From Flavobacteriaceae bacterium (GTDB lineage Bacteria > Bacteroidota > Bacteroidia > Flavobacteriales > Flavobacteriaceae): 38,774 nucleotides of DNA. The notes under the pieces are model-generated. The model worked only from the letters and a program-made list of their open reading frames with translations, was not told the origin of the DNA and ran no database searches. This document shows, piece after piece, positions 7,819-30,440 of the stretch. Each line of letters begins with the position of its first letter. Positions within the stretch are counted from its first letter, which is position 1. The translations under genes and the position numbers were made by a program. The stretch is from assembly GCA_018646605.1 (NCBI GenBank), contig JABGUL010000032.1, positions 1 to 38,774 of the forward strand. The letters are read 5' to 3'.

Positions 7819-9507
7819 CCTGTAAAAATCAATGGCAAAGGTTGTTTTATTTCCAACCGAGTCTTCTGCTTCTATAGTCACCTCATGGAGCGCCTGCTCA
7901 AAATCAAGATCACTGAAATCAAAAATTAAGGTATTGTTTTTAGGTTCGTATTCTAATAAAATCCATTTGCCATTAATTTCACCCCTATACGATTTGATAC
8001 CTGTATAATCATCTTCAATTTTAAATTTTAAAAAGCTGTAGTTAGAAAGCCATTGCTCATTTTTAAAATTTAAGGGTACAATTTTAGGGGCTATTGAGTC
8101 TCTACTGACTACAAATTCTCCTAGTGATTTGGATTTCCCTACCCATCTGTTGTCTTCTTTTTTTGTACTTAAAAAATATGCTTTTCCGTTTTGACTAATT
8201 TTACCTATGAAGGATTGTGCTTTTTGTAAGCTATCCATCTCAGGAATTGTAAAATTGATTTCAAACGGTTTTTTTAATGGAAGCGAATCTTCTCCTACCA
8301 CGAGTGTATCTCCATTTTGTTTTACTTGAAGAGTAGCTTTTTCAAAAAAGGAATCTTTTGGAAAATAGACAGACGTGGAATTAAAATCAAACAAGTAGTC
8401 CTTTATAGGGTCTAATAAATTTACTTGAGATTTAATTTCTTTCTGAGGCGCTTCAATTCCAGAAAGATATGCTTCTACATAGGAAGCGTTTCCGTTATAA
8501 TCAAGTAATTGGATAAGAAGCTGATATGATTTATTGGGTATTAAACTTAAAGTTCCATATAAAGGAGGTTCATCTATAAAGCTTAACTGACTTTTTGGAT
8601 GCAGTGCAAAACGTTGAATTCTACTTCTATTTTGCTTTAGATTTTTGTGATCAATAAATAAATTAATACTTTTTGAATCGTCAAAAGAAATACGATCCAT
8701 TGTATACTTAAATTCTTCTTTGCCATTGAGTCTCACCGAAGCACTATAAATTCCATTTTTATTATAGGAAAGATTTTGCCTATCAAAAAAACGGAGTCCT
8801 ACTTGGATGGAACCACCTGCATTTAATGCTGCAGTAGTATATACACTGTCATTTTTCTTAATCAGTGGATATTCTTTTTTAGAGTTAAAGTCATCTTTGC
8901 CAGAATAGAGATAGAAATTTTGAATTTGTGGGCGTAGGTTGTCCTCAATTTTTAGTGGAAATTGCATAGGGTTTAAGGGACTCTGATCTCTAGAGTCTCT
9001 AATTTCAAAATGTAGATGTGGTCCATTAGATCCTCCGGTATTTCCTGAGTAACCTATTAATTCTCCCTGTTCAATCTTTAATTCCTCCTCTTTAGGAAAC
9101 AATTGTATGGTATAGGATTCCTTTAGATATTGCTTTGCCCTTACATAGGTTTCTATTTTGGGGGCAAATTTTTTGAGATGCGCATAAACTGACGTTGTTC
9201 CATCAAAATGTTCAATGTAAAGTGCTTTACCATAACCACTGGTACTTACCCTGATTCTGTTTACTTTCCCTGACTGTACACTCTTGACTTCAAGACCTTG
9301 TCTCCCCTGAGTTTTTATATCCAAGCCAGCATGAAAATGATTGTTCCTAAGCTCTCCAAAGGTCCCTGAAAGAAGAATGGGAATATCAAGGGGAGCAATC
9401 CATTTATCCCTTTCTTGCGCGAACGAAGAAAAAAAGAAGAGGAACAAATAAAAGAAATATGTATTGGGTCTGATAATAAAAAAGGTATTGTGTTTATTTA
9501 AACGCAA
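7813..9507 (-). CDS. Secreted M23 family metallopeptidase
   Basis: 564 residues with a long N-terminal signal peptide, probably cleaved after SSFA (residue 30). The LytM/M23 peptidase domain is N-terminal (about 40-175). The zinc ligands are all visible: H59-x3-D63 in HFHAGLD, and H164/H166 in GPHLHFE, with H110 as the further catalytic His. These enzymes cut peptidoglycan cross-links or peptides in the envelope. The last ~380 residues look beta-rich and Ig-like, without a recognised motif. The only in-frame start before the signal is TTG at 9507, because a stop lies four codons upstream. The reading is otherwise intact. Confidence 0.87.
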   Translation of the reverse strand: MRLNKHNTFFIIRPNTYFFYLFLFFFSSFAQERDKWIAPLDIPILLSGTFGELRNNHFHAGLDIKTQGRQGLEVKSVQSGKVNRIRVSTSGYGKALYIEHFDGTTSVYAHLKKFAPKIETYVRAKQYLKESYTIQLFPKEEELKIEQGELIGYSGNTGGSNGPHLHFEIRDSRDQSPLNPMQFPLKIEDNLRPQIQNFYLYSGKDDFNSKKEYPLIKKNDSVYTTAALNAGGSIQVGLRFFDRQNLSYNKNGIYSASVRLNGKEEFKYTMDRISFDDSKSINLFIDHKNLKQNRSRIQRFALHPKSQLSFIDEPPLYGTLSLIPNKSYQLLIQLLDYNGNASYVEAYLSGIEAPQKEIKSQVNLLDPIKDYLFDFNSTSVYFPKDSFFEKATLQVKQNGDTLVVGEDSLPLKKPFEINFTIPEMDSLQKAQSFIGKISQNGKAYFLSTKKEDNRWVGKSKSLGEFVVSRDSIAPKIVPLNFKNEQWLSNYSFLKFKIEDDYTGIKSYRGEINGKWILLEYEPKNNTLIFDFSDLDFEQALHEVTIEAEDSVGNKTTFAIDFYRK

Positions 9508-9618
9508 GATAGAAAATCAATTTTTTTGAAGGGGCTTAATAGAGTAAATATATCTAAAGAGGATTGTTAAAATTTTTAAAACTCTTGATGTATACGATAC
9601 TTTTATCAAAAGATTGAA

Positions 9619-9626
9619 TAACTTTG
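9619..9626 (+). promoter_or_regulatory. Putative -7 element for the zapB-like/zapA genes
   Basis: TAACTTTG is a full match to TAnnTTTG. Transcription would start a few bases downstream, giving a leader of about 20 bases to the ATG at 9653. This argues against the upstream TTG at 9614 as a start, since it lies before the promoter box. Confidence 0.45.
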
Positions 9627-9652
9627 TGTATGAAGTAGGTTATTACTTTTTA

Positions 9653-9952
9653 ATGATGGAGAAAAACGAAACTGGGATTGTTGTTTTGGAGCAGAAAATT
9701 ATTGATCTTCTCAATAAGCTAAAAGGAAACCACCTTGATTTAGTTACATTTCAAGACGAAAATGAAGTGTTGAAAACACAAAATATTTCCTTGGAACAGC
9801 AATTATCTTCTTTACAGGAAGAAAATAAATCATTAAAGATTGCAAATAATTTACTCGGCAGTAATGAAGGAACACAAGAAACAAAAAGTAAAATAAATAA
9901 TTTGATTAAGGAAGTTGAGAATTGTATTCAACAGGTGTCAGAAATGAATTGA
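9653..9952 (+). CDS. Small coiled-coil protein, ZapB-like
   Basis: About 99 residues, almost entirely charged and heptad-patterned (LEQKIIDLLNKLK, then LEQQLSSLQEENKSLK), with no membrane segment. It sits four bases before zapA and looks like the small coiled-coil partners found beside ZapA, so a role in FtsZ-ring organisation is plausible but inferred. The start is placed at ATG 9653 (a second ATG follows at 9656). The in-frame TTG at 9614 lies upstream of the probable promoter. It could be an unrelated coiled-coil protein. Confidence 0.72.
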   Translation: MMEKNETGIVVLEQKIIDLLNKLKGNHLDLVTFQDENEVLKTQNISLEQQLSSLQEENKSLKIANNLLGSNEGTQETKSKINNLIKEVENCIQQVSEMN

Positions 9953-9956
9953 TTTT

Positions 9957-10253
9957 ATGAGTGATTTATTAAAAATAAAGCTTACCATAGCAAATAGAGT
10001 ATATCCATTGTCTGTTGCCCCCGAACAAGAAGCTTCACTTAGAGCTTCAGCAAAGAAAATTGAAACAACAATTCTTCAGCTTGAAAAGAATTATGCAGTA
10101 AGAGACAAGCAAGATGTTCTTGCGATGTGTGCCCTCCAATACGCAGCTCAATTAGAACAATTGAAAGCAAAAGATGCTCCTAAAAATGATGATAATCATG
10201 AAAAAGTATCAGAGCTTATCAATATGATAGATGTTCACTTAGCTGCATATTAA
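9957..10253 (+). CDS. zapA: Cell division protein ZapA
   Basis: 98 residues. It has the ZapA pattern: an N-terminal strand region (KIKLTIANRVYPLSV), a short helix with EASLRASAKKIE, then a long C-terminal helix that dimerises (AMCALQYAAQLEQLK). ZapA binds FtsZ and bundles protofilaments at the division site. It lies four bases after the coiled-coil gene and just before a probable 6S RNA. The zapA-6S RNA neighbourhood is well known in other bacteria, which supports both calls. Confidence 0.87.
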   Translation: MSDLLKIKLTIANRVYPLSVAPEQEASLRASAKKIETTILQLEKNYAVRDKQDVLAMCALQYAAQLEQLKAKDAPKNDDNHEKVSELINMIDVHLAAY

Positions 10254-22749: not shown

Positions 22750-22779
22750 TGTTTAACAAATAGCTTTAATAGTTAAACA
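22750..22779. promoter_or_regulatory. Paired TGTTTAAC boxes, candidate operator of the photolyase operon
   Basis: TGTTTAAC (22750-22757) and its complement GTTAAACA (22772-22779) face each other across 14 bases, with centres 22 bp apart, about two helical turns. The left box lies in a longer palindrome TTTGTT-T-AACAAA (22748-22760). The pair ends six bases before the -7 box of the photolyase operon and covers the -33 position, so a dimeric activator or repressor site is likely. The regulator is not in the window. Confidence 0.5.
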
Positions 22780-22784
22780 TTTTG

Positions 22785-22792
22785 TAAATTTG
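22785..22792 (+). promoter_or_regulatory. Putative -7 element of the photolyase operon
   Basis: TAAATTTG matches TAnnTTTG, 22 bases before the SRPBCC ATG at 22814. No TTG occurs at a normal -33 distance, where the paired boxes lie instead, so the promoter may need an activator. Confidence 0.5.
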
Positions 22793-22813: not shown

Positions 22814-23281
22814 ATGAAACTATATCGTCTTGAGACGGTTCAGAATTTGCCAATCTCTCAAAAAGAGGCGTGGGATTTTTTGTCAGACCCAAAAAATTTA
22901 AAGCGCATCACTCCAGAATACATGGGTTTTGAAATATTAAGTGGTGCTTCAGATAAAATGTATGCGGGTCAGATAATTCAATATATAGTTACACCAGTAA
23001 TGAGTATACCTACTAAATGGGTTACTGAAATAACCCATGTTGACGAGGGTAAATATTTTGTAGATGAGCAGCGATTTGGTCCTTACGCACTTTGGCATCA
23101 CAAGCATTTTATAAAACCCATTCACAAGGGTGTTGAGATGATTGATATTATTGATTACAAAATCCCCTTTGGGATTTTAGGCCAACTGGTTCACCCAATT
23201 ATAGTCGCACCCAAGCTTAAGGAAATTTTTGAATTTAGAAAACACGCTCTTAATGAAATGTTTGGAGAATACAAAGTATGA
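22814..23281 (+). CDS. SRPBCC family protein, first gene of the photolyase operon
   Basis: 155 residues with a START/Bet v1-like pattern: VQNLPISQKEAWDFLSDPKN at the start, LKRITPEYMGF, and a long C-terminal helix (LKEIFEFRKHALNEMFGE). SRPBCC proteins form a deep cavity for hydrophobic ligands. No catalytic residue is known for this subgroup. Its stop overlaps the SDR-like gene by ATGA, tying it to the photolyase operon. Binding of a chromophore, flavin-related or lipid ligand is possible but is only inferred from context. Confidence 0.83.
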   Translation: MKLYRLETVQNLPISQKEAWDFLSDPKNLKRITPEYMGFEILSGASDKMYAGQIIQYIVTPVMSIPTKWVTEITHVDEGKYFVDEQRFGPYALWHHKHFIKPIHKGVEMIDIIDYKIPFGILGQLVHPIIVAPKLKEIFEFRKHALNEMFGEYKV

Positions 23282-23979
23282 TTGAAAACAAAAACATATT
23301 AATAATAGGGGGAAGTTCTGGAATTGGACTTGCGCTAGCAGAATTATTATCATCGAGGAATTCGGTTTATGTAGCTTCAAGAAGCAGTGAGTCACTTTCA
23401 CAACTCAAAGTGAATCACATCGCTTATGATGCCACTTCGGATGAACTTGATGTATCACAACTGCCTGATAATCTTCATGGATTTGTGTACTGTCCAGGAT
23501 CTATAAACCTCCGACCTTTTAAAGGGCTAAAAACAGAAGCCTTTATAAAAGACTTTGAGCTAAATGTAATTGGTGCTGTTAATGCCTTAAAATCTGTCTT
23601 GAACTTACTGAACGCAAGTGGAAATGCTTCGGTGGTATTTTTCAGTACAGTTGCTGTTCAGACAGGAATGCCTTTTCACAGTTCAGTGGCTGCTTCTAAA
23701 GGAGCTATTGAGGGATTAACAAGATCATTAGCTGCAGAATTTGCGCCAAAAATACGAGTTAATGCAATTGCCCCTTCGTTAGTGGACACTCCTTTAGCTT
23801 CAAAGTTTCTAAACAATGAATTGAAGTTAGAAAAAGCTAATGAACGTCATCCTATGGGTAGAGTTGGTAATGCGCAAGAAATCGCTAAAGCAACTGCATT
23901 TTTATTGGGTGAAGAAAGCGGTTGGATGACAGGAAATATAGTACAATTAGACGGAGGAATAGGGAATTTAAAAACCTAA
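23278..23979 (+). CDS. SDR-fold protein lacking the catalytic tyrosine
   Basis: 233 residues, short-chain dehydrogenase/reductase fold. The NAD(P)-binding motif GGSSGIG (11-17), N96 and the C-terminal ending QLDGG are present. The active-site serine region is FFSTVAV, but the YxxxK motif reads V137-A-A-S-K141, so the catalytic tyrosine is replaced by valine (GTG codon at 23686). A normal SDR reaction is therefore doubtful, and it may act as a nucleotide-binding or sensing protein. It overlaps the SRPBCC gene by four bases and precedes the photolyase gene by six. Confidence 0.85.
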   Translation: MIENKNILIIGGSSGIGLALAELLSSRNSVYVASRSSESLSQLKVNHIAYDATSDELDVSQLPDNLHGFVYCPGSINLRPFKGLKTEAFIKDFELNVIGAVNALKSVLNLLNASGNASVVFFSTVAVQTGMPFHSSVAASKGAIEGLTRSLAAEFAPKIRVNAIAPSLVDTPLASKFLNNELKLEKANERHPMGRVGNAQEIAKATAFLLGEESGWMTGNIVQLDGGIGNLKT

Positions 23980-23985
23980 GACAAC

Positions 23986-25290
23986 ATGGAAAAAGTCACA
24001 CTATTTTGGTTTAGAAGAGATTTGAGAATCCAAGATAATTGTGGACTTTATCATGCTTTGAAGGGAGAAAATAGGGTAATTCCTATTTTTATTTTTGACA
24101 AAGAAATACTTAAAAAACTACCCAAGCAGGATGCTCGAGTAGAGATGATTTTATTAGCCTTGGGTGCCATTGATATTGCTATGAAGAGGAACCGATGTAA
24201 TGTTGGAAAGTATCATGGTACCCCGAAGGCTATTTTTTCAAAGCTAATTAAGCAGTGGAATATTGAAAAAGTAATCTGCAATGAAGATTATGAGCCCTAT
24301 GCTTCAGAGCGTGATAGTGAAATTAAAACTTTATTAGAAGCTGCAGGAATTCAGTTTGAATGTTATAAGGATCAAGTGATTTTTGAAAAAGAGGAGGTAG
24401 TTAAAGGTGACGGCACTCCCTACAAAGTTTATACTCCTTATTCCAGAAAATGGTTGGAAAAATATCAAGAAACACCCCTTCAATTTTATCCTTCAGAAGT
24501 AGAGCTCGATTCTTTAGCATCAAATGAAAGCCTCCCTGATTTAAACCTTTCTGACTTGGGTTTTGAAACGAGTGGTATTGCTCAGCCTGAATATCGATTT
24601 GATGACACACTCATTGATCAATATGAGGCGACACGAAATTTTCCAGCATTAGATCAAACTTCTCGATTGGGTGCCCACTTGCGTTTTGGAACTGTAAGCA
24701 TACGTCGGCTAGTTAATCAGGCATCCTCACGTTCTAATAATACATTTTTAAAAGAGTTGATTTGGAGAGAATTTTTCATGCAAATCTTGTGGCATTTTCC
24801 ATATACCCAGCAAAAAAGCTTTAAACCTCAATACGAAAGGATAATTTGGAGAAATAATCCTGATGAGTTTGAGAAATGGTGTGCGGGTGAGACCGGCTAT
24901 CCCCTTGTAGATGCGGGAATGCGTGAATTGAATGAGACTGGATTTATGCATAATAGGGTTAGAATGCTAGTAGGTAGTTTTTTGTGTAAGCATCTTTTGA
25001 TTGACTGGCGTTGGGGGGAATCCTATTTTGCTGAGAAACTATTGGATTATGAGATGTCAAGCAATGTCGGCAACTGGCAATGGGTTGCGGGTTGTGGTGT
25101 AGATGCAGCCCCTTACTTTCGTATTTTCAATCCTTCGGAACAGATAAAAAAGTTTGATAAACAGCTTCAGTATATCCAGAAATGGGTCCCTAACTTTCAA
25201 GAACTCGACTATCCTTCACCAATAGTAGATCACAAATATGCACGAGAACGTTGCTTGACGACCTACAAAGAAGCCTTAAATACTTTATGA
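23986..25290 (+). CDS. phrB: Class I CPD deoxyribodipyrimidine photolyase
   Basis: 434 residues. The N-terminal antenna domain starts with [13 protein letters not shown]. The FAD domain carries ELIWREF (with the Glu and Trp used for lesion contact in E. coli PhrB), [20 protein letters not shown] with the Met typical of CPD photolyases, LIDWRWGE, and GNWQWVAG near 361-368 followed by [11 protein letters not shown]. It uses blue light and reduced FAD to split cyclobutane pyrimidine dimers. The Trp electron-transfer positions appear intact. It is followed by DUF2256 with an ATGA overlap. The symbol phrB is by analogy with E. coli. Confidence 0.92.
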
Positions 25291-25421
25291 AAGGGGTTTT
25301 AAAACAGAATCTCCCTGAGAAAATTTGTTCAACCTGTATGCGTCCTTTTAGCTGGAGAAAAAAATGGGAGCGGGATTGGGAAGCTGTAAAATATTGTAGT
25401 CAAAAATGTAAAATGCGATGA
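25287..25421 (+). CDS. DUF2256 small four-cysteine protein
   Basis: 44 residues, missed by length filters. The ATG overlaps the photolyase stop (ATGA at 25287-25290) and the TGA overlaps the Cry-DASH start (ATGA at 25418-25421), so it is fully embedded in the operon. It has C14-x2-C17 and C37-x3-C41, likely a zinc or other metal knuckle, around a basic/aromatic core ([18 protein letters not shown]). This matches DUF2256, a family often found beside photolyase or cryptochrome genes. Function unknown. It could aid DNA or partner binding by a photolyase. Confidence 0.88.
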
Positions 25422-26719
25422 AGACTGCCTTGGTATGGTTGCGTAATGATCTTCGATTTGAAGATCAAAATTCATTCTTTACGGCTTGTCAAGAGCATGA
25501 AAGAGTAGTGGCTTATTTTTCTTTTGAACCAAAGGATTATGATAAAACAATGTGGGGATTTACAAAAACAGGAAAATTCAGAACTCACTTTCTTTTAGAA
25601 ACATTACGTTCTTTACAAACAGAGCTAGAGAATAAAAATATTTCACTTATTGTGGAAAATAGATCTGCAGCAACAGGGATTCCTTTCTGGTTAGACCAGC
25701 TTAAAGCGACAGCACTCTTTTTTCAAGAAGAATGGACATTTGAGGAGAAGATGATTTCAGATGCAGTTGTCAATCAAATCTCTAATGATATAAATGTCTA
25801 TTCTCATTACGATCAATTCCTATACCATCCAGAGGATGTTTCCATGGAAATTCAATCCATTCCTAAGGTGTTTACTGAATTTAGAAAAAAATGCGAAAAA
25901 TTTAGCAACATCAGGCCTTGTTTTAGTGCCCCAAAAGTTTTGAATAAAAGCTCTTTGTTATCCGAAACTCCAGCTATGCCTGTTCTAGAAGACTTTGAAT
26001 TTACACCTTTTACTCATCATGCCAATTCAGCATTCCCTTTTAAAGGGGGAATGGTTTCAGGTCTCGATCATTTGCAAAATTACTTTTGGAATACCAAACG
26101 ACTCTCGTATTATAAACAAACAAGAAATGGCTTGGTGGGTGTAGGTTATAGTTCAAAATTTTCTCCTTGGTTGGCAAATGGATCACTGTCTGCAAGAGTA
26201 ATCTACTGGGAAGTTATGCGCTACGAAAAAGAAGTTAAAAAAAACGAATCCACCTACTGGCTTATTTTTGAGTTACTTTGGAGAGACTATTTTAAGTATA
26301 TTTCTTTAAAGCATGGTAATTCAATCTTTCATTTAGGTGGGATTCTTAAGAAAGAATACACATGGAATTCTAAACAAGAGGATTTCCTCAAGTGGGTTGA
26401 AGGAGAAACAGCAGAGCCTTTTGTAAATGCAAACATGATTGAGTTGAAAAAAACAGGTTTCATGAGCAATCGCGGAAGACAAAATGTAGCGAGCTATTTT
26501 GCTAAAAACATGATGATGGACTGGCGTATGGGCGCTGCTTATTTTGAACGGCAACTTGTAGATTATGATGTGCACAGTAACTGGGGTAATTGGATGTATG
26601 TCGCTGGAGTTGGAAATGACCCAAGAGACAGAAAATTCAATATTAAACTTCAGGCAGAACGTTATGATTCTAATGGAAAATATCAAAACCTGTGGCTGCA
26701 AAATTCTTTATTTGAATGA
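25418..26719 (+). CDS. Cryptochrome DASH
   Basis: 433 residues. DASH-type signatures are clear: [32 protein letters not shown], and the run [19 protein letters not shown] followed by PRDRKFNI. An N-terminal antenna-like domain begins [13 protein letters not shown]. Cry-DASH proteins bind FAD and usually a folate, and repair CPDs in single-stranded or looped DNA or signal blue light. The C-terminus ends soon after the [12 protein letters not shown] segment with no extension. It overlaps DUF2256 and the Fe-S photolyase gene by four bases each. The sequence cannot tell whether it is a repair enzyme or a sensor. Confidence 0.93.
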
Positions 26720-28248
26720 TTTTAAGACTACTCCTTGGCGATCAATTAAATTTAAACCACTCTTGGTTTGAAAAAGTGGATGATTCTGTTTGTTATGTCA
26801 TAATGGAAGTGCAACAAGAAACTAATTATGTCAAACATCACATACAAAAAGTCATTGCCTTCTTCAATGCGATGCGACAGTTTAAAACTGATTTAGAACA
26901 AAGGGGACACCGTGTTCACTATATAGAATTAAATGACAAGACCAATTCACAAAGCTTAACTAAAAATCTACTTCATCTCATTGATGTCTACCAAGCGAGG
27001 GTGTTTGAATATCAATATCCAGATGAATATAGGCTTGATAAACAATTAGAAGATTTTTGTAAAACACTTTCAATCCGAACAAATACGATAGATACAGAAC
27101 ATTTTATGACATCGAGAACTTTTTTGTCCTCCTTTTTTGAGGGAAAAAAACAATTGGTGATGGAGTATTTTTATCGTAGAATTCGAAAAGATTTTAACCT
27201 ACTCATGGAAGGGGAAAATCCATTGGGTGGTGCCTGGAATTTTGATAAAAATAATAGGAATAAATGGAAAGGATCTCCCATTATACCAAAAGCTTATAGG
27301 GTTGATTCTTCTAATCTAGATTCATTAACAACAATGTTGCGAGAAGAGGAGGTCACTACCTTAGGAACGATAGATTCTACTTCTTTTTTATATCCTGCTT
27401 CACGAAAGGAAGCCCTTTTGCAGTTAGAATATTTTAATAAAAACCTACTAAGGTATTTTGGTTTTTATCAGGATGCGATGCATACTGAAGAAGTTAATTT
27501 ATTTCATTCTCGTTTGTCTTTTGCTTTAAACACAAAAATGGTCACTCCATTAGAAGTTGTTCAGTCTGTGATTGATTACCACCATCAAAATGAAGATGAA
27601 ATCGACATTTCACAAGTGGAAGGTTTTGTTCGTCAAATTATTGGATGGAGAGAATATATGCGTGGTATTTATTGGAGAGAAATGCCAGCGTATGGGCAAA
27701 AAAATGCTTTGGATAATCACAATACCCTTCCAAACTTTTATTGGACAGGTGAAACAAACATGAATTGTTTAAAGCAGAGCATTAAAAATTCTCTAGATCA
27801 TGCTTATGCCCATCATATTCAGCGTTTAATGGTTACAGGTAATTTTGCACTGCTTGCACAAGTTCATCCTGATGAAGTTGACCGCTGGTATCTGGGGGTA
27901 TATGCTGATGCGGTAGAGTGGGTTCAACTTCCCAATACACGTGGAATGAGTCAGTGGGCAGATGGTGGAATTGTAGCTACAAAGCCATATGTTTCTGCGG
28001 CAGCTTACATTCATAAGATGAGCAATTATTGTGAGGGTTGTAAGTACGATAAGAAAAAGCGTGTCGGTGATGATGCTTGCCCATTCAATAGCCTTTATTG
28101 GAATTTTCTAGATGATAAAAAACAATATTTTGCAAAAAACAACCGTATGGCAATGATGCTTAGATTGCTAGAAAAAATTCCACCAACAGAATTGGCGGAC
28201 CTTAAAGAAAGGGCCTATAAAATCATTTCTAATCCAGATGAGTATTAA
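26716..28248 (+). CDS. Fe-S bacterial cryptochrome/(6-4) photolyase (PhrB-like, FeS-BCP)
   Basis: 510 residues. The four iron-sulfur ligands known from Agrobacterium PhrB are all present, at C351 (MNCLKQS), C439 and C442 (NYCEGCKY) and C455 (DDACPF). The [12 protein letters not shown] segment (365-376) carries the conserved histidine used in (6-4) repair. The N-terminus [12 protein letters not shown] is typical. Family members bind FAD, a [4Fe-4S] cluster and the lumazine antenna, and repair (6-4) photoproducts. Its start overlaps Cry-DASH by four bases and its end overlaps the next gene by eleven. All key residues look intact. Confidence 0.93.
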
Positions 28249-29710
28249 TAAAAAGGAACTTGCTGTTGTTTGGTTGAAAAGAGATTTGCGTCTTTCTGAT
28301 CATGAGGCGTTACACAATGCTTTAGCAACTAAAAAGCGATGTCTTTTGATGTATGTTTTTGAAGACATATTACTCAGTGATTTTCATTACAGCGCAAGAC
28401 ATTTTGATTTTATTAAGCAATCTATTGTGGAAATGAATAATCAGTTGAAGTTATTCAACACCCGAGTGCTTTGTTTGAAAGGATCAGTTATAGAAGCTTT
28501 AGATACACTTTCAGAACAGTATTCTATTGCTTTGTATTCTCATCAAGAAACAGGAATAGGTCTCACTTTTGAACGGGATAAATCAGTAAAGCAATGGGCA
28601 GATAAGAATGGTGTTCATTGGAATGAATTTTTACAGCAAGGAGTGTTCAGAGGATTGCCAAATCGGAAAAAATGGATTCATTTATGGACTGCTCATATGA
28701 ATCGTCCACTTTTTAATTTTTCTCCGGAAGACGATCAGTTCATTTCTGCGGAGTTAATTTGTGAATTTGAAAAAGAATTTGAAGTCATGGAACTTAACAC
28801 TCCCAAATCTCAATGGTTTCAACCGGGGGGTGAACAAAAGGCAAGCCGCTATCTCAATTCGTTTTTTGAAAGGCGGTATTTAAATTATCAAAAACATATT
28901 TCAAAACCCGATCTAGCAAGAAAGAGTTGCAGTCGACTGTCTCCTTATATCGCCTGGGGTAATATTTCCATGCGTCAAGTATTGCAAAGAACACAAGAAG
29001 AAAAGGAAAGAGGGAATAAAAGTAGAGCACTTGTTTCTTTTGGTTCACGATTGCGATGGCAGGCTCATTTTATACAGAAGTTCGAAATGGAATGCAGTAT
29101 GGAATACAAAAGTATTAATAAGGGGTACCATGCGTTGGTAAAGGAAAAAAGGGTCGATTATCTAAAAGCATGGGAAACAGGACATACAGGAATCCCAATG
29201 GTAGATGCAGCCATGCGCTGTTTGGTCACGACAGGCTATTTGAATTTCAGAATGCGAGCCTTGGTAGTTTCTTTTGTTATCCACCAGTTATGGCAACCTT
29301 GGCAATCAATTTCAGGATTTTTGGCACGACAATTTCTTGACTTTGAACCCGGTATACATTTTCCTCAAATTCAAATGCAGGCAGGGGAAACTGGTATTAA
29401 TACCTTACGTATATATAACCCTGTAAAAAATGGACTTGAGCATGATCCTCAAGGAAAATTTGTGTCAAAATGGATTCCAGAGCTACAGAAACTTCCAGAG
29501 CGTTTTCTGCATACTCCATGGGAAATTACGCCACTAGAATCTTCCTTATATGATTTTAAATTAGGGGAGGATTATCCACATCCAATTGTGGATATTGATA
29601 CGACAAGAGATAAGGCAAGTCAAATTCTCTGGAACCTTCAAAAAAATAGTTTGGTAAAAAAAGAAAGTAAACGAATTTTAAATAGGCACACGCTACCCAA
29701 TAGAAAATGA
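28238..29710 (+). CDS. Divergent photolyase/cryptochrome-family protein
   Basis: 490 residues. The antenna domain starts [16 protein letters not shown], and the FAD domain has [17 protein letters not shown] and [10 protein letters not shown]. Several canonical residues differ: the ELIWREF lesion-contact motif reads SRLRWQAHF (Glu to Arg), MHNR reads LNFR, and the FAD-side NNGGWQW reads as a GIHFPQIQ stretch near 372-379. Thus the FAD-proximal Trp and the Asn facing FAD N5 appear absent, while the two outer Trps (in PWQSISG and KAWETG) remain. By-eye alignment only. The protein may bind FAD but act other than as a standard photolyase. It overlaps the upstream gene by eleven bases. Confidence 0.86.
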
Positions 29711-29997
29711 TGATGAAAAATAAAATTGAACTAGATGCAATTCAAATTGACCGTATTATTGAAATGGCCTGGGAAGACAGAACTCCTTTTGATGCTATAG
29801 TACTCCAATTTGGATTAAAAGAACAAGATGTCATTTCTCTAATGCGAAGAGAAATGAAACCCTCTAGTTTTAAAATGTGGCGAGCCAGAGTGCAGGGGAG
29901 AAAAACAAAACACAGTAAGAGTCGTTCTGAAACGGTTGCTCGTTTTAAGTGTTCCCGTCAGCGCAATATCAGTAATAATAAAGTGTCTAAGCGTTAA
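29707..29997 (+). CDS. TIGR03643/DUF2805 family small HTH-like protein
   Basis: 96 residues. The family core runs from [17 protein letters not shown] to [15 protein letters not shown]. The middle ([22 protein letters not shown]) reads like a helix-turn-helix, and the last 35 residues are strongly basic ([15 protein letters not shown]...KVSKR), so DNA binding is plausible. It overlaps the previous gene by ATGA and is the last gene of the photolyase operon. Three consecutive ATG codons occur at 29707, 29710 and 29713, so the exact start is uncertain by two residues. Function unknown. Confidence 0.86.
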
Positions 29998-30023: not shown

Positions 30024-30440
30024 ATGTCTTCAAATAAAACAAAACCTACTGCAACATCGATACCTCTTTTCTTAAACTCAATTGTTCCAGAACAAAAGCA
30101 AAAGGATAGCAGGAAATTGTATACCCTTATGGAGAGAGTTACAGGTGCTCATGGTATTTTATGGGGAACTTCTATTATTGGTTTTGGTGATTATCATTAT
30201 AAATATCAAAGTGGGAGAGAGGGGGATTGGTTTTTGATAGGCTTTTCACCAAGAAAAAAGGCCTTAACAGTCTATCTAATGTGTGATGTTTCTCATGAAA
30301 AAATTGCTTTTGAAGGACTTGGCAAGTTCACAAAAGGAAAGGGATGTCTATATATAAAAAAGCTTGAAGATATAGATTTGGCTATTTTAGAGAAAATTTT
30401 AAAAACCAGTATTTCACTAACCGTTAGAAGAAATCAGTAG
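30024..30440 (+). CDS. DUF1801 family protein
   Basis: 138 residues. The DUF1801/YdhG-like pattern is visible: an N-terminal helix (DSRKLYTLMERVTG), then GFGDYHYKYQSGREGDWFLIGF, a strand pair KKALTVYLM, and LGKFTKGKGCLYIKKLEDID. The family has a frataxin-like fold of unclear function. It follows the photolyase operon by 26 bases across an inverted repeat, so it may be the last gene of that unit or separately controlled. Its end overlaps the convergent gene by seven bases. Confidence 0.84.
   Translation: MSSNKTKPTATSIPLFLNSIVPEQKQKDSRKLYTLMERVTGAHGILWGTSIIGFGDYHYKYQSGREGDWFLIGFSPRKKALTVYLMCDVSHEKIAFEGLGKFTKGKGCLYIKKLEDIDLAILEKILKTSISLTVRRNQ

Follow-up and report, generated by a model that had tools for sequence, protein, structure and literature searches.

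Why should a bacterium with a small genome keep four different members of the photolyase/cryptochrome superfamily in a single operon, and what do the four genes packed between and around them contribute? The question is raised by eight plus-strand genes read at positions 22,814 to 29,997 of the window, i.e., the whole stretch of 38,774 nucleotides analysed, from a Flavobacteriaceae bacterium. With a probability of about two thirds, we consider them to be the photorepair core of a light regulon of the LitR/CarH type, compacted by streamlining. In the dark, a MerR-type, B12-binding repressor of this family would probably occupy the inverted repeat TGTTTAAC-N14-GTTAAACA upstream of the operon. 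In the light it would release this operator and allow a single transcript of translationally coupled genes, whereby the CPD, (6-4) and DASH flavoproteins and the divergent homologue, here called PHR4, would be made at the same time as their helpers. Of a larger cluster known from flavobacteria, the small genome would have retained the core as one unit.

Anatomy and conservation of the operon

The features are, in order:

22750..22779, no strand: inverted repeat TGTTTAAC-N14-GTTAAACA, proposed light-regulon operator, exact, 34 nt before the first gene
22785..22792, plus: TAAATTTG, resembles the Bacteroidota -7 element (read from the sequence)
22814..23281, plus: SRPBCC-like protein, 155 aa; PF03364 19.2 bits, cut-off of 23.4 not reached
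23278..23979, plus: short-chain dehydrogenase/reductase (SDR), His-x6-Lys replacing Tyr-x3-Lys, 233 aa; PF13561 131 bits
23986..25290, plus: class I CPD photolyase, 434 aa; PF03441 251 bits, PF00875 133 bits, 1owl 278 bits
25287..25421, plus: DUF2256, four-Cys zinc-finger-like, 44 aa; PF10013 74 bits
25418..26719, plus: cryptochrome DASH, 433 aa; TIGR02765 484 bits, 1np7 406 bits
26716..28248, plus: Fe-S (6-4)-type photolyase (FeS-BCP), 510 aa; PF04244 246 bits, 7ykn 496 bits
28238..29710, plus: PHR4, divergent photolyase/cryptochrome homologue, 490 aa; PF03441 205 bits, best PDB match 140 bits
29707..29997, plus: TIGR03643/DUF2805, 96 aa, predicted helical, helix-turn-helix-like; PF10985 127 bits (cut-off 22.5), TIGR03643 123 bits (cut-off 66.55)
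30024..30440, plus: DUF1801 protein, 138 aa; PF08818 45.8 bits, 26-nt gap after the DUF2805 gene

The eight genes are packed as tightly as the first-pass annotation had described, with five ATGA overlaps of 4 nt (at 23278, 25287, 25418, 26716 and 29707), one overlap of 11 nt (28238-28248) and one gap of 6 nt (23980-23985). The DUF1801 gene may be a ninth and last member; in 6 of 17 same-genus loci, no more than 300 nt separate it from DUF2805. No fusion of a small gene to a photolyase is apparent from the listed open-frame lengths. Consensus scans for promoters and terminators stayed near the level of shuffled sequences (35 versus 32.3 and 10 versus 6.3, respectively) and, therefore, no such site was taken from them.

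Profile and PDB matches agree with the families originally named, which are CPD photolyase, cryptochrome DASH, the Fe-S (6-4) type, a divergent member, DUF2256 and TIGR03643; the label SRPBCC, the score of which stays below its cut-off, survives as a likeness. The catalytic glutamate, the asparagine at flavin N5 and the tryptophan triad of class I CPD photolyases are present in 60/60 sequences (gene 3 and its homologues), the positions in gene 3 being those that we presume from the customary CPD numbering. Gene 5 reaches 483.6 bits with TIGR02765, the curated cut-off being 317.05, and is a DASH protein. In gene 6, four cysteines and a His-His pair align with 7ykn, 9hnk and 5kcm; we take the former to be the ligands of the 4Fe-4S cluster and the latter to be the active-site motif. 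By its residues, gene 6 is thus predicted to encode a (6-4)-type photolyase of the FeS-BCP group.

The SDR was said to lack its tyrosine, and this is correct: valine or isoleucine takes the place of Tyr (position 137) in 76/76 sequences. The classical Tyr-x3-Lys site is not found in gene 2; Ser123 and Lys141 are retained and, like an invariant His134 seven residues before the lysine, occur in all 76. In Burkholderia, relatives with the same histidine lie near the genes for DUF2256 and GTP cyclohydrolase I, and in Mesorhizobium they belong to an RpoE-ChrR cluster that also holds two photolyase-family genes. Together with FolE and flavin reductase, where these are present, the SDR presumably acts in cofactor or photo-oxidative chemistry. 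Of the 38 genome-contig loci with the SRPBCC-like gene, 31 have it at a distance of 300 nt or less from the CPD gene, and its product may carry a ligand in connection with the CPD enzyme.

The order of the eight genes is preserved in all 17 same-genus loci fetched, drawn from the 29 of 36 same-genus relatives that have a DUF2805 match; PHR4 is missing in three. The close junctions recur, the 11-nt overlap in 10/14, in a comparison in which the choice of starts is biased toward those near -4 nt. One spacing of 1121 nt between PHR4 and DUF2805 fits locus L138, where the PHR4 frame stops early. Similar clusters had been said to exist in other marine bacteria, and comparison of gene neighbourhoods indeed reveals them in other Flavobacteriaceae. 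The larger version comprises TetR, ABC1 kinase, flavin reductase, DUF2867, DUF2256, DASH, Fe-S, PHR4, DUF2805, FolE, SDR, SRPBCC and CPD genes; in our organism the TetR-ABC1 pair and two FolE genes sit away from the operon. A viral origin was considered and rejected: DUF2805 had no phage match and PHR4 matched phage proteins with at most 26.6% identity (best 5 of 8 records).

Operator and regulator

The inverted repeat TGTTTAAC-N14-GTTAAACA was not matched once in 100 shuffles. It is followed by TAAATTTG, which we liken to the -7 element motif TAnnTTTG of Bacteroidota. In the form TGTTTAA-N16-TTAAACA the operator is exact in 13 of the 17 same-genus loci and has one mismatch in three more, at a nearly constant position. 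Among 174 Bacteroidota loci there are 67 exact copies, and the spacing is strict: when gaps from 6 to 26 were allowed, 67 copies had a gap of 16, five of 17, one of 10 and none any other. The control with 104 permuted half-sites in the same 174 loci yielded a mean of 0.19 and a maximum of 3. These counts omit L175, L199 and L251, contigs that duplicate other loci, and may still include other near-duplicates. Fifty-four of the 67 exact copies are found no more than 120 nt upstream of a gene of the photorepair set; others stand beside MerR-B12 (LitR/CarH) genes, and a few lone DUF2805 genes are preceded by the operator, too (exact in L181 and L216, one mismatch in L231). The own genome has a further exact copy 157 nt upstream of a unit of unassigned, amine-oxidase and Caroten_synth genes; an ion-channel gene flanks this copy on its other side in divergent orientation. 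A scan of this genome with up to two mismatches gave a count not above that of the reversed control. A third exact copy that lacks a link to light, together with a network result on DUF2805, slightly lowers our confidence in the main reading.

Which protein binds there? The own genome holds one gene with both MerR_1 and B12-binding_2 domains (on contig C44), followed by a gene of the squalene/phytoene synthase family. Seven of ten loci with a LitR homologue carry the operator within 1.5 kb (up to one mismatch, gap 16 or 17), and Pfam finds both domains in L179, L163 and L165. The competing candidate is a TetR-family protein, the product of the gene paired with that of the ABC1 kinase; it would bind the operator and control the set in place of LitR, the trigger being a ligand, e.g., an oxidised lipid or pigment, and not light itself. 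The operator precedes TetR in 26 of 35 testable cases, a one-mismatch copy lies 27 nt before the TetR-ABC1 pair of the own genome, and in many relatives the large cluster begins with TetR. However, G005 (one mismatch), G017 (exact) and G183 retain operator and LitR in the absence of a TetR homologue at E 1e-10, and in L179 the operator sits between LitR and amine-oxidase (desaturase-like) genes, with a matching place in L081, L208 and L234. We consider control by TetR unlikely. In G001 neither regulator is present and the operon has no operator. Most likely, a LitR/CarH-type protein regulates the operon, the operator is probably part of a light-sensor system based on vitamin B12, and the operon would be induced by light.

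The nearest known system is the LitR/PplR regulon of Pseudomonas putida and P. mendocina. There, units with phrB, cryB, an SDR gene and folE are light-induced under the control of a LitR-family protein, and their start and stop codons overlap or lie close, as far as the accessible part of the report tells (PMC9758184). The LitR/CarH-family regulator would be a further likeness, the one of our operon being deduced. By the same partial source, the Pseudomonas system differs in its operator, TGTACA-N12-TGTACA, in having fewer photolyases in separate units and in not naming TIGR03643, DUF2256 or SRPBCC (PMC9758184). The Pseudomonas class II operator is absent from the promoter region read here; TGTTTAAC-N14-GTTAAACA stands there instead.

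Tentatively, and with somewhat less than even confidence, we extend the picture to a light regulon of Bacteroidota that has TGTTTAA-N16-TTAAACA as its own operator and unites genes for photorepair, carotenoids and pterins. DUF2256 and DUF2805 would serve in it as dedicated partners of photolyase-family proteins other than the CPD type. PHR4 would form a class of its own among the photolyases/cryptochromes, with histidine at flavin N5 and no proximal tryptophan, and hence a different photochemistry or another lesion. The operator offers a search motif for Bacteroidota.

DUF2256 and DUF2805

That the proteins work as a set had been suggested from their tight coupling. The shared operator, the conserved order and the co-occurrence at the level of genomes support this. 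The more specific roles first suggested for the helpers, i.e., to supply an antenna ligand, to assemble a repair complex or to relay a light signal, are conjectural. In 217 Bacteroidota genomes, the own one excluded and weak partial matches omitted, DUF2256 is accompanied by PF03441 in 67/67 and DUF2805 in 57/57 cases. The omissions concern five genomes having only a DUF2805 paralogue of about 75 bits and partial DUF2256 matches in G070 and G140, the latter of 22 residues in a genome without PF03441. PF03441 was counted at E 0.001, which gave 134 genomes including the own one; 122 exceed the curated cut-off. At least two PF03441 genes are found in 63/67 genomes with DUF2256 versus 7/150 without, and DUF2256 is present in 52 of the 57 genomes with DUF2805.

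Physical proximity splits the two families. If the accessory genes lay mostly away from photolyases in other genomes, the idea of a set was meant to fall; this applies to DUF2805 and not to DUF2256. Of 60 Bacteroidota loci with DUF2805, drawn evenly, 19 have a photolyase at a distance of up to 9 kb and 41 have none, which counts against a strict coupling. DUF2256 has one within the same distance in 14/20 loci centred on itself, and in 15/17 and 33/38 of those DUF2805-centred loci in which it occurs.

Are the small genes, then, mere passengers? Only the photolyases would be functionally linked, and the small genes would ride along in UV-gene islands of sunlit bacteria, brought together by streamlining. 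The 41 lone DUF2805 loci suit this idea, as do plasmids of Pantoea, Thioclava and Salipiger with DUF2256 and of Vibrio with TIGR03643, which have no photolyase within the stretch (Proteobacteria were sampled through plasmid records). But the genome-wide co-occurrence without exception, the operator on some of the lone DUF2805 genes and pairs of neighbours that have come together anew, in other orders and other phyla, speak against it, and we regard it as quite improbable. DUF2256 and DUF2805, for instance, are neighbours in other orientations on Acinetobacter plasmids and in six Bacteroidota loci.

As to their functions, text searches found no paper linking DUF2256, TIGR03643/DUF2805 or SRPBCC to photolyases and none on the Polaribacter operon; papers on TIGR03643/DUF2805, in the parts available, make no such link. 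The cysteines C14, C17, C37 and C41 of DUF2256 are kept in 97-98% of 97 sequences, and the protein may bind zinc and act as a partner of the DASH, Fe-S and PHR4 proteins. DUF2805 has predicted helices at 11-22, 28-35, 39-49 and 52-62, gave no Foldseek match at E 0.001 and is possibly a small DNA-binding protein. Together with the His-x6-Lys SDR, these hitherto unexplained small families become testable members of a light-response set.

PHR4 and related systems

In PHR4, arginine replaces the CPD glutamate, histidine occupies the flavin N5 position and the flavin-proximal tryptophan (Trp382) is absent, each in 68/68 distinct sequences. It thus lacks the Glu and Trp382 of class I CPD photolyases, and it retains the full photolyase fold with its alpha/beta and FAD-binding parts. 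PHR4 might be a blue-light receptor instead of a repair enzyme, signalling via DUF2256 and DUF2805. Its altered sites, the helix-turn-helix-like look of DUF2805 and the adjacency of PHR4 and DUF2256 in Salinivibrio and Tritonibacter fit such a role; the three of 17 same-genus operons that lack PHR4 still keep both small genes, however, and the full fold, being preserved, leaves room for the repair of some lesion. A receptor function appears improbable to us. Either way, PHR4 is a conserved photolyase-like group, the active site of which departs from the CPD and DASH enzymes compared.

The authors of the UV-B-inducible photolyase operon of Synechococcus PCC 7335 cite, in the text at hand, only two earlier examples (PMC9649867). 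Like ours, it has coupled photolyase genes and an 11-nt overlap; according to the same incomplete text it differs in having no helpers and two photolyase genes, of which the second is a homologue of the bifunctional PhrSph98, and is conserved in one other genome (PMC9649867). The RpoE-ChrR-type cluster on a Mesorhizobium terrae plasmid shares two photolyase-family genes and the His-x6-Lys SDR with our operon. It differs by its ECF sigma/anti-sigma pair, MsrPQ and a cyclopropane-type lipid gene, and neither DUF2805 nor DUF2256 is annotated in the stretch. Great Lakes Nitrospira, as described in the available portion of the paper, have an FeS-BCP photolyase beside an uncharacterised FAD-binding protein, another photolyase-family gene (PMC9239080). 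PHR4, with its full photolyase fold, is a different protein from this partner. A short FAD_binding_7 family, which fits what that portion says of the Nitrospira partner, stands beside DUF2805, DUF2256 and Fe-S genes in several Bacteroidota loci.

A conserved photolyase operon

The operon is real, well conserved and no artefact. Re-read on the window, its eight open reading frames and all seven junctions match the first-pass annotation. Light-induced photolyase units are a known kind; what is new, as a variant of it, is the operon with four photolyase-family members, together with its operator and the membership of the helper genes (SRPBCC, SDR, DUF2256, DUF2805). The genome (1.98 Mb, 44 contigs, 98% complete) has three PF03441 matches, every one inside the operon; the remaining photolyase-family member of the operon, the Fe-S protein (FeS), is of PF04244 type.

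The order SRPBCC-SDR-CPD-DUF2256-DASH-FeS-(PHR4)-DUF2805 is retained in all 17 same-genus loci fetched, drawn from the 29 of 36 relatives having a DUF2805 match. PHR4, the divergent photolyase homologue, is absent from three of them (G001, G005, G017), and in two loci DUF2256 and DASH are spaced by 448 and 1650 nt. A DUF1801 gene (30024-30440) lies 26 nt downstream of DUF2805 and has a 7-nt overlap with the end of a convergent gene. It may be a ninth member of the operon; 6 of the 17 loci have DUF1801 no more than 300 nt from DUF2805.

Many larger Flavobacteriaceae have a wider cluster: the same genes plus TetR, ABC1 kinase, flavin reductase, DUF2867, c144, FolE and DUF6435. In the window genome, a TetR-ABC1 pair is on a different contig from the operon, and two FolE genes are located outside it. 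c144 is a 140-aa family without Pfam match (e.g., L072:10179-10598 and homologues); in many Flavobacteriaceae it stands directly upstream of DUF2805, often as first gene of an operator-bearing unit. The nearest 80 DUF2805 loci in named genomes are mostly Flavobacteriaceae by title, including the largely marine genera Polaribacter, Winogradskyella, Tenacibaculum, Aquimarina and Maribacter.

The proposed operator

Exact operator copies in the genome
22750-22779: inverted repeat TGTTTAAC-N14-GTTAAACA, 34 nt upstream of the first ATG of the operon, just ahead of a TAnnTTTG-like element
C36, L286:3081-6614: copy upstream of a unit made up of an unassigned gene (229 aa), an amine-oxidase/desaturase-like one and Caroten_synth; ion-channel gene on the opposite side
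C37, L287:8698-8727: copy between TonB-receptor-like and Rieske-domain genes; no link to light seen

Of the 17 same-genus loci, 13 carry TGTTTAA-N16-TTAAACA exactly and 3 with one mismatch, at nearly constant distance within diverged surroundings. Among 174 loci, exact copies number 67 at gap 16, five at gap 17, one at gap 10 and zero at the remaining gaps of 6-26; 104 permuted half-sites gave a mean of 0.19 and a maximum of 3 copies. As these loci were selected around DUF2805/DUF2256, the enrichment applies to the surroundings of the gene set, not to whole genomes. Within 120 nt upstream of a gene of the set lie 54 of the 67 copies (c144 17, TetR 15, SRPBCC 15, flavin reductase 3, DUF2805 2, DUF2256 1, DUF6435 1); the other 13 do not, and some further-inspected copies precede amine-oxidase (desaturase-like) or fasciclin genes.

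Besides the three exact copies, the genome has one with a single mismatch, 27 nt upstream of TetR-ABC1; copies with two mismatches are at background. The C36 copy suggests that carotenoid genes are under the same switch as the operon. A two-mismatch copy (L266:9047-10197, contig C28), of the kind found at background, overlaps the start predicted for a methionine sulfoxide reductase gene, which FolE directly follows.

LitR or TetR as regulator

Of the 10 loci having a LitR homologue, 7 have it no more than 1.5 kb from the operator, and the three LitR homologues submitted to Pfam each contain MerR_1 and B12-binding_2. In 20 genomes tested, TetR was found in 16 and LitR in 19. G005, G017 and G183 lack TetR and retain operator and LitR; G001 lacks both regulators, and its operon is without operator. 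These few cases favour LitR over TetR. The genome itself has one gene with MerR_1 and B12-binding_2, followed by squalene/phytoene synthase and hydroxylase genes; no operator with 0-1 mismatch is present in that stretch. Its sequence contains ENEIHELG, in line with the ExHxxG B12 motif, although for the B12 part Pfam gives only B12-binding_2. Elsewhere, in L165, a MerR-B12 gene (8826-9701) directly adjoins DUF2256 (at 9971), with no photolyase detected in the stretch.

In the dark, LitR would sit on the operon promoter; light would release it, and a single coupled transcript would deliver repair flavoproteins and helpers together. The individual functions of the helpers are inferred. A precedent is Pseudomonas, where LitR-family control of phrB, cryB and folE and an SDR within a light-induced unit are described (PMC9758184). 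The literature searched, which included passages of PMC11417400, PMC4406064, PMC3597751 and PMC9649867 and had most subscription journals outside its scope, yielded no description of this operator or of these helpers linked to photolyases.

Helper genes and photolyases elsewhere

The claim that the accessory genes keep company with photolyases holds at the genome level; local adjacency is weaker. The survey covered 217 genomes of Bacteroidota with a completeness of at least 90%, the own genome excluded. Each of the 67 genomes with DUF2256 has one or more PF03441 matches, and 63 of them have at least two; for the 150 without DUF2256 the numbers are 66 and 7. DUF2805 (low-scoring paralogue excluded) occurs in 57 genomes, all with PF03441 and 52 with DUF2256. 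The p-values reach 2e-41 and overstate independence, since the genomes have common ancestry. G140 has a partial 22-residue DUF2256 match and no PF03441.

Locally, tblastn with window-type queries, which other photolyases could escape, detected a photolyase no further than 9 kb from DUF2805 in 19 of 60 loci drawn evenly and in 49 of the 80 nearest-relative loci; for DUF2256 the count is 14 of 20 DUF2256-centred loci. The DUF2805-centred loci divide into 65 with a photolyase in the stretch, 14 with an operator but no photolyase and 58 with neither. Of the 38 genome-contig loci having SRPBCC, 31 have the CPD gene no more than 300 nt away from it; in the genus of the window the SDR is placed between the two. 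Six loci (L092, L202, L220, L240, L246, L249) have DUF2256 and DUF2805 in head-to-head arrangement; in Acinetobacter plasmids the two are tail to tail, adjoining a cryptochrome/photolyase gene. No photolyase is present in the stretches around TIGR03643 on Vibrio plasmids or DUF2256 on Pantoea, Thioclava and Salipiger plasmids.

On a Burkholderia anthina plasmid (L262), in a stretch without photolyase annotation, DUF2256 clusters with a cyclopropane-type lipid gene, GTP cyclohydrolase I, a sigma-70 family factor and an SDR with His-x6-Lys. A short FAD_binding_7 family adjoins DUF2805, DUF2256 or Fe-S photolyase genes (L094:8817-9944, L154, L158, L224, L229); it fits the photolyase-related family described for Great Lakes Nitrospira (PMC9239080). 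In two Acinetobacter plasmids (L034, L258), nudC, encoding NAD(+) diphosphatase, adjoins photolyase, DUF2256 and TIGR03643 genes; a rare DUF2805-NADH-diphosphatase domain architecture is listed in PMC6856373.
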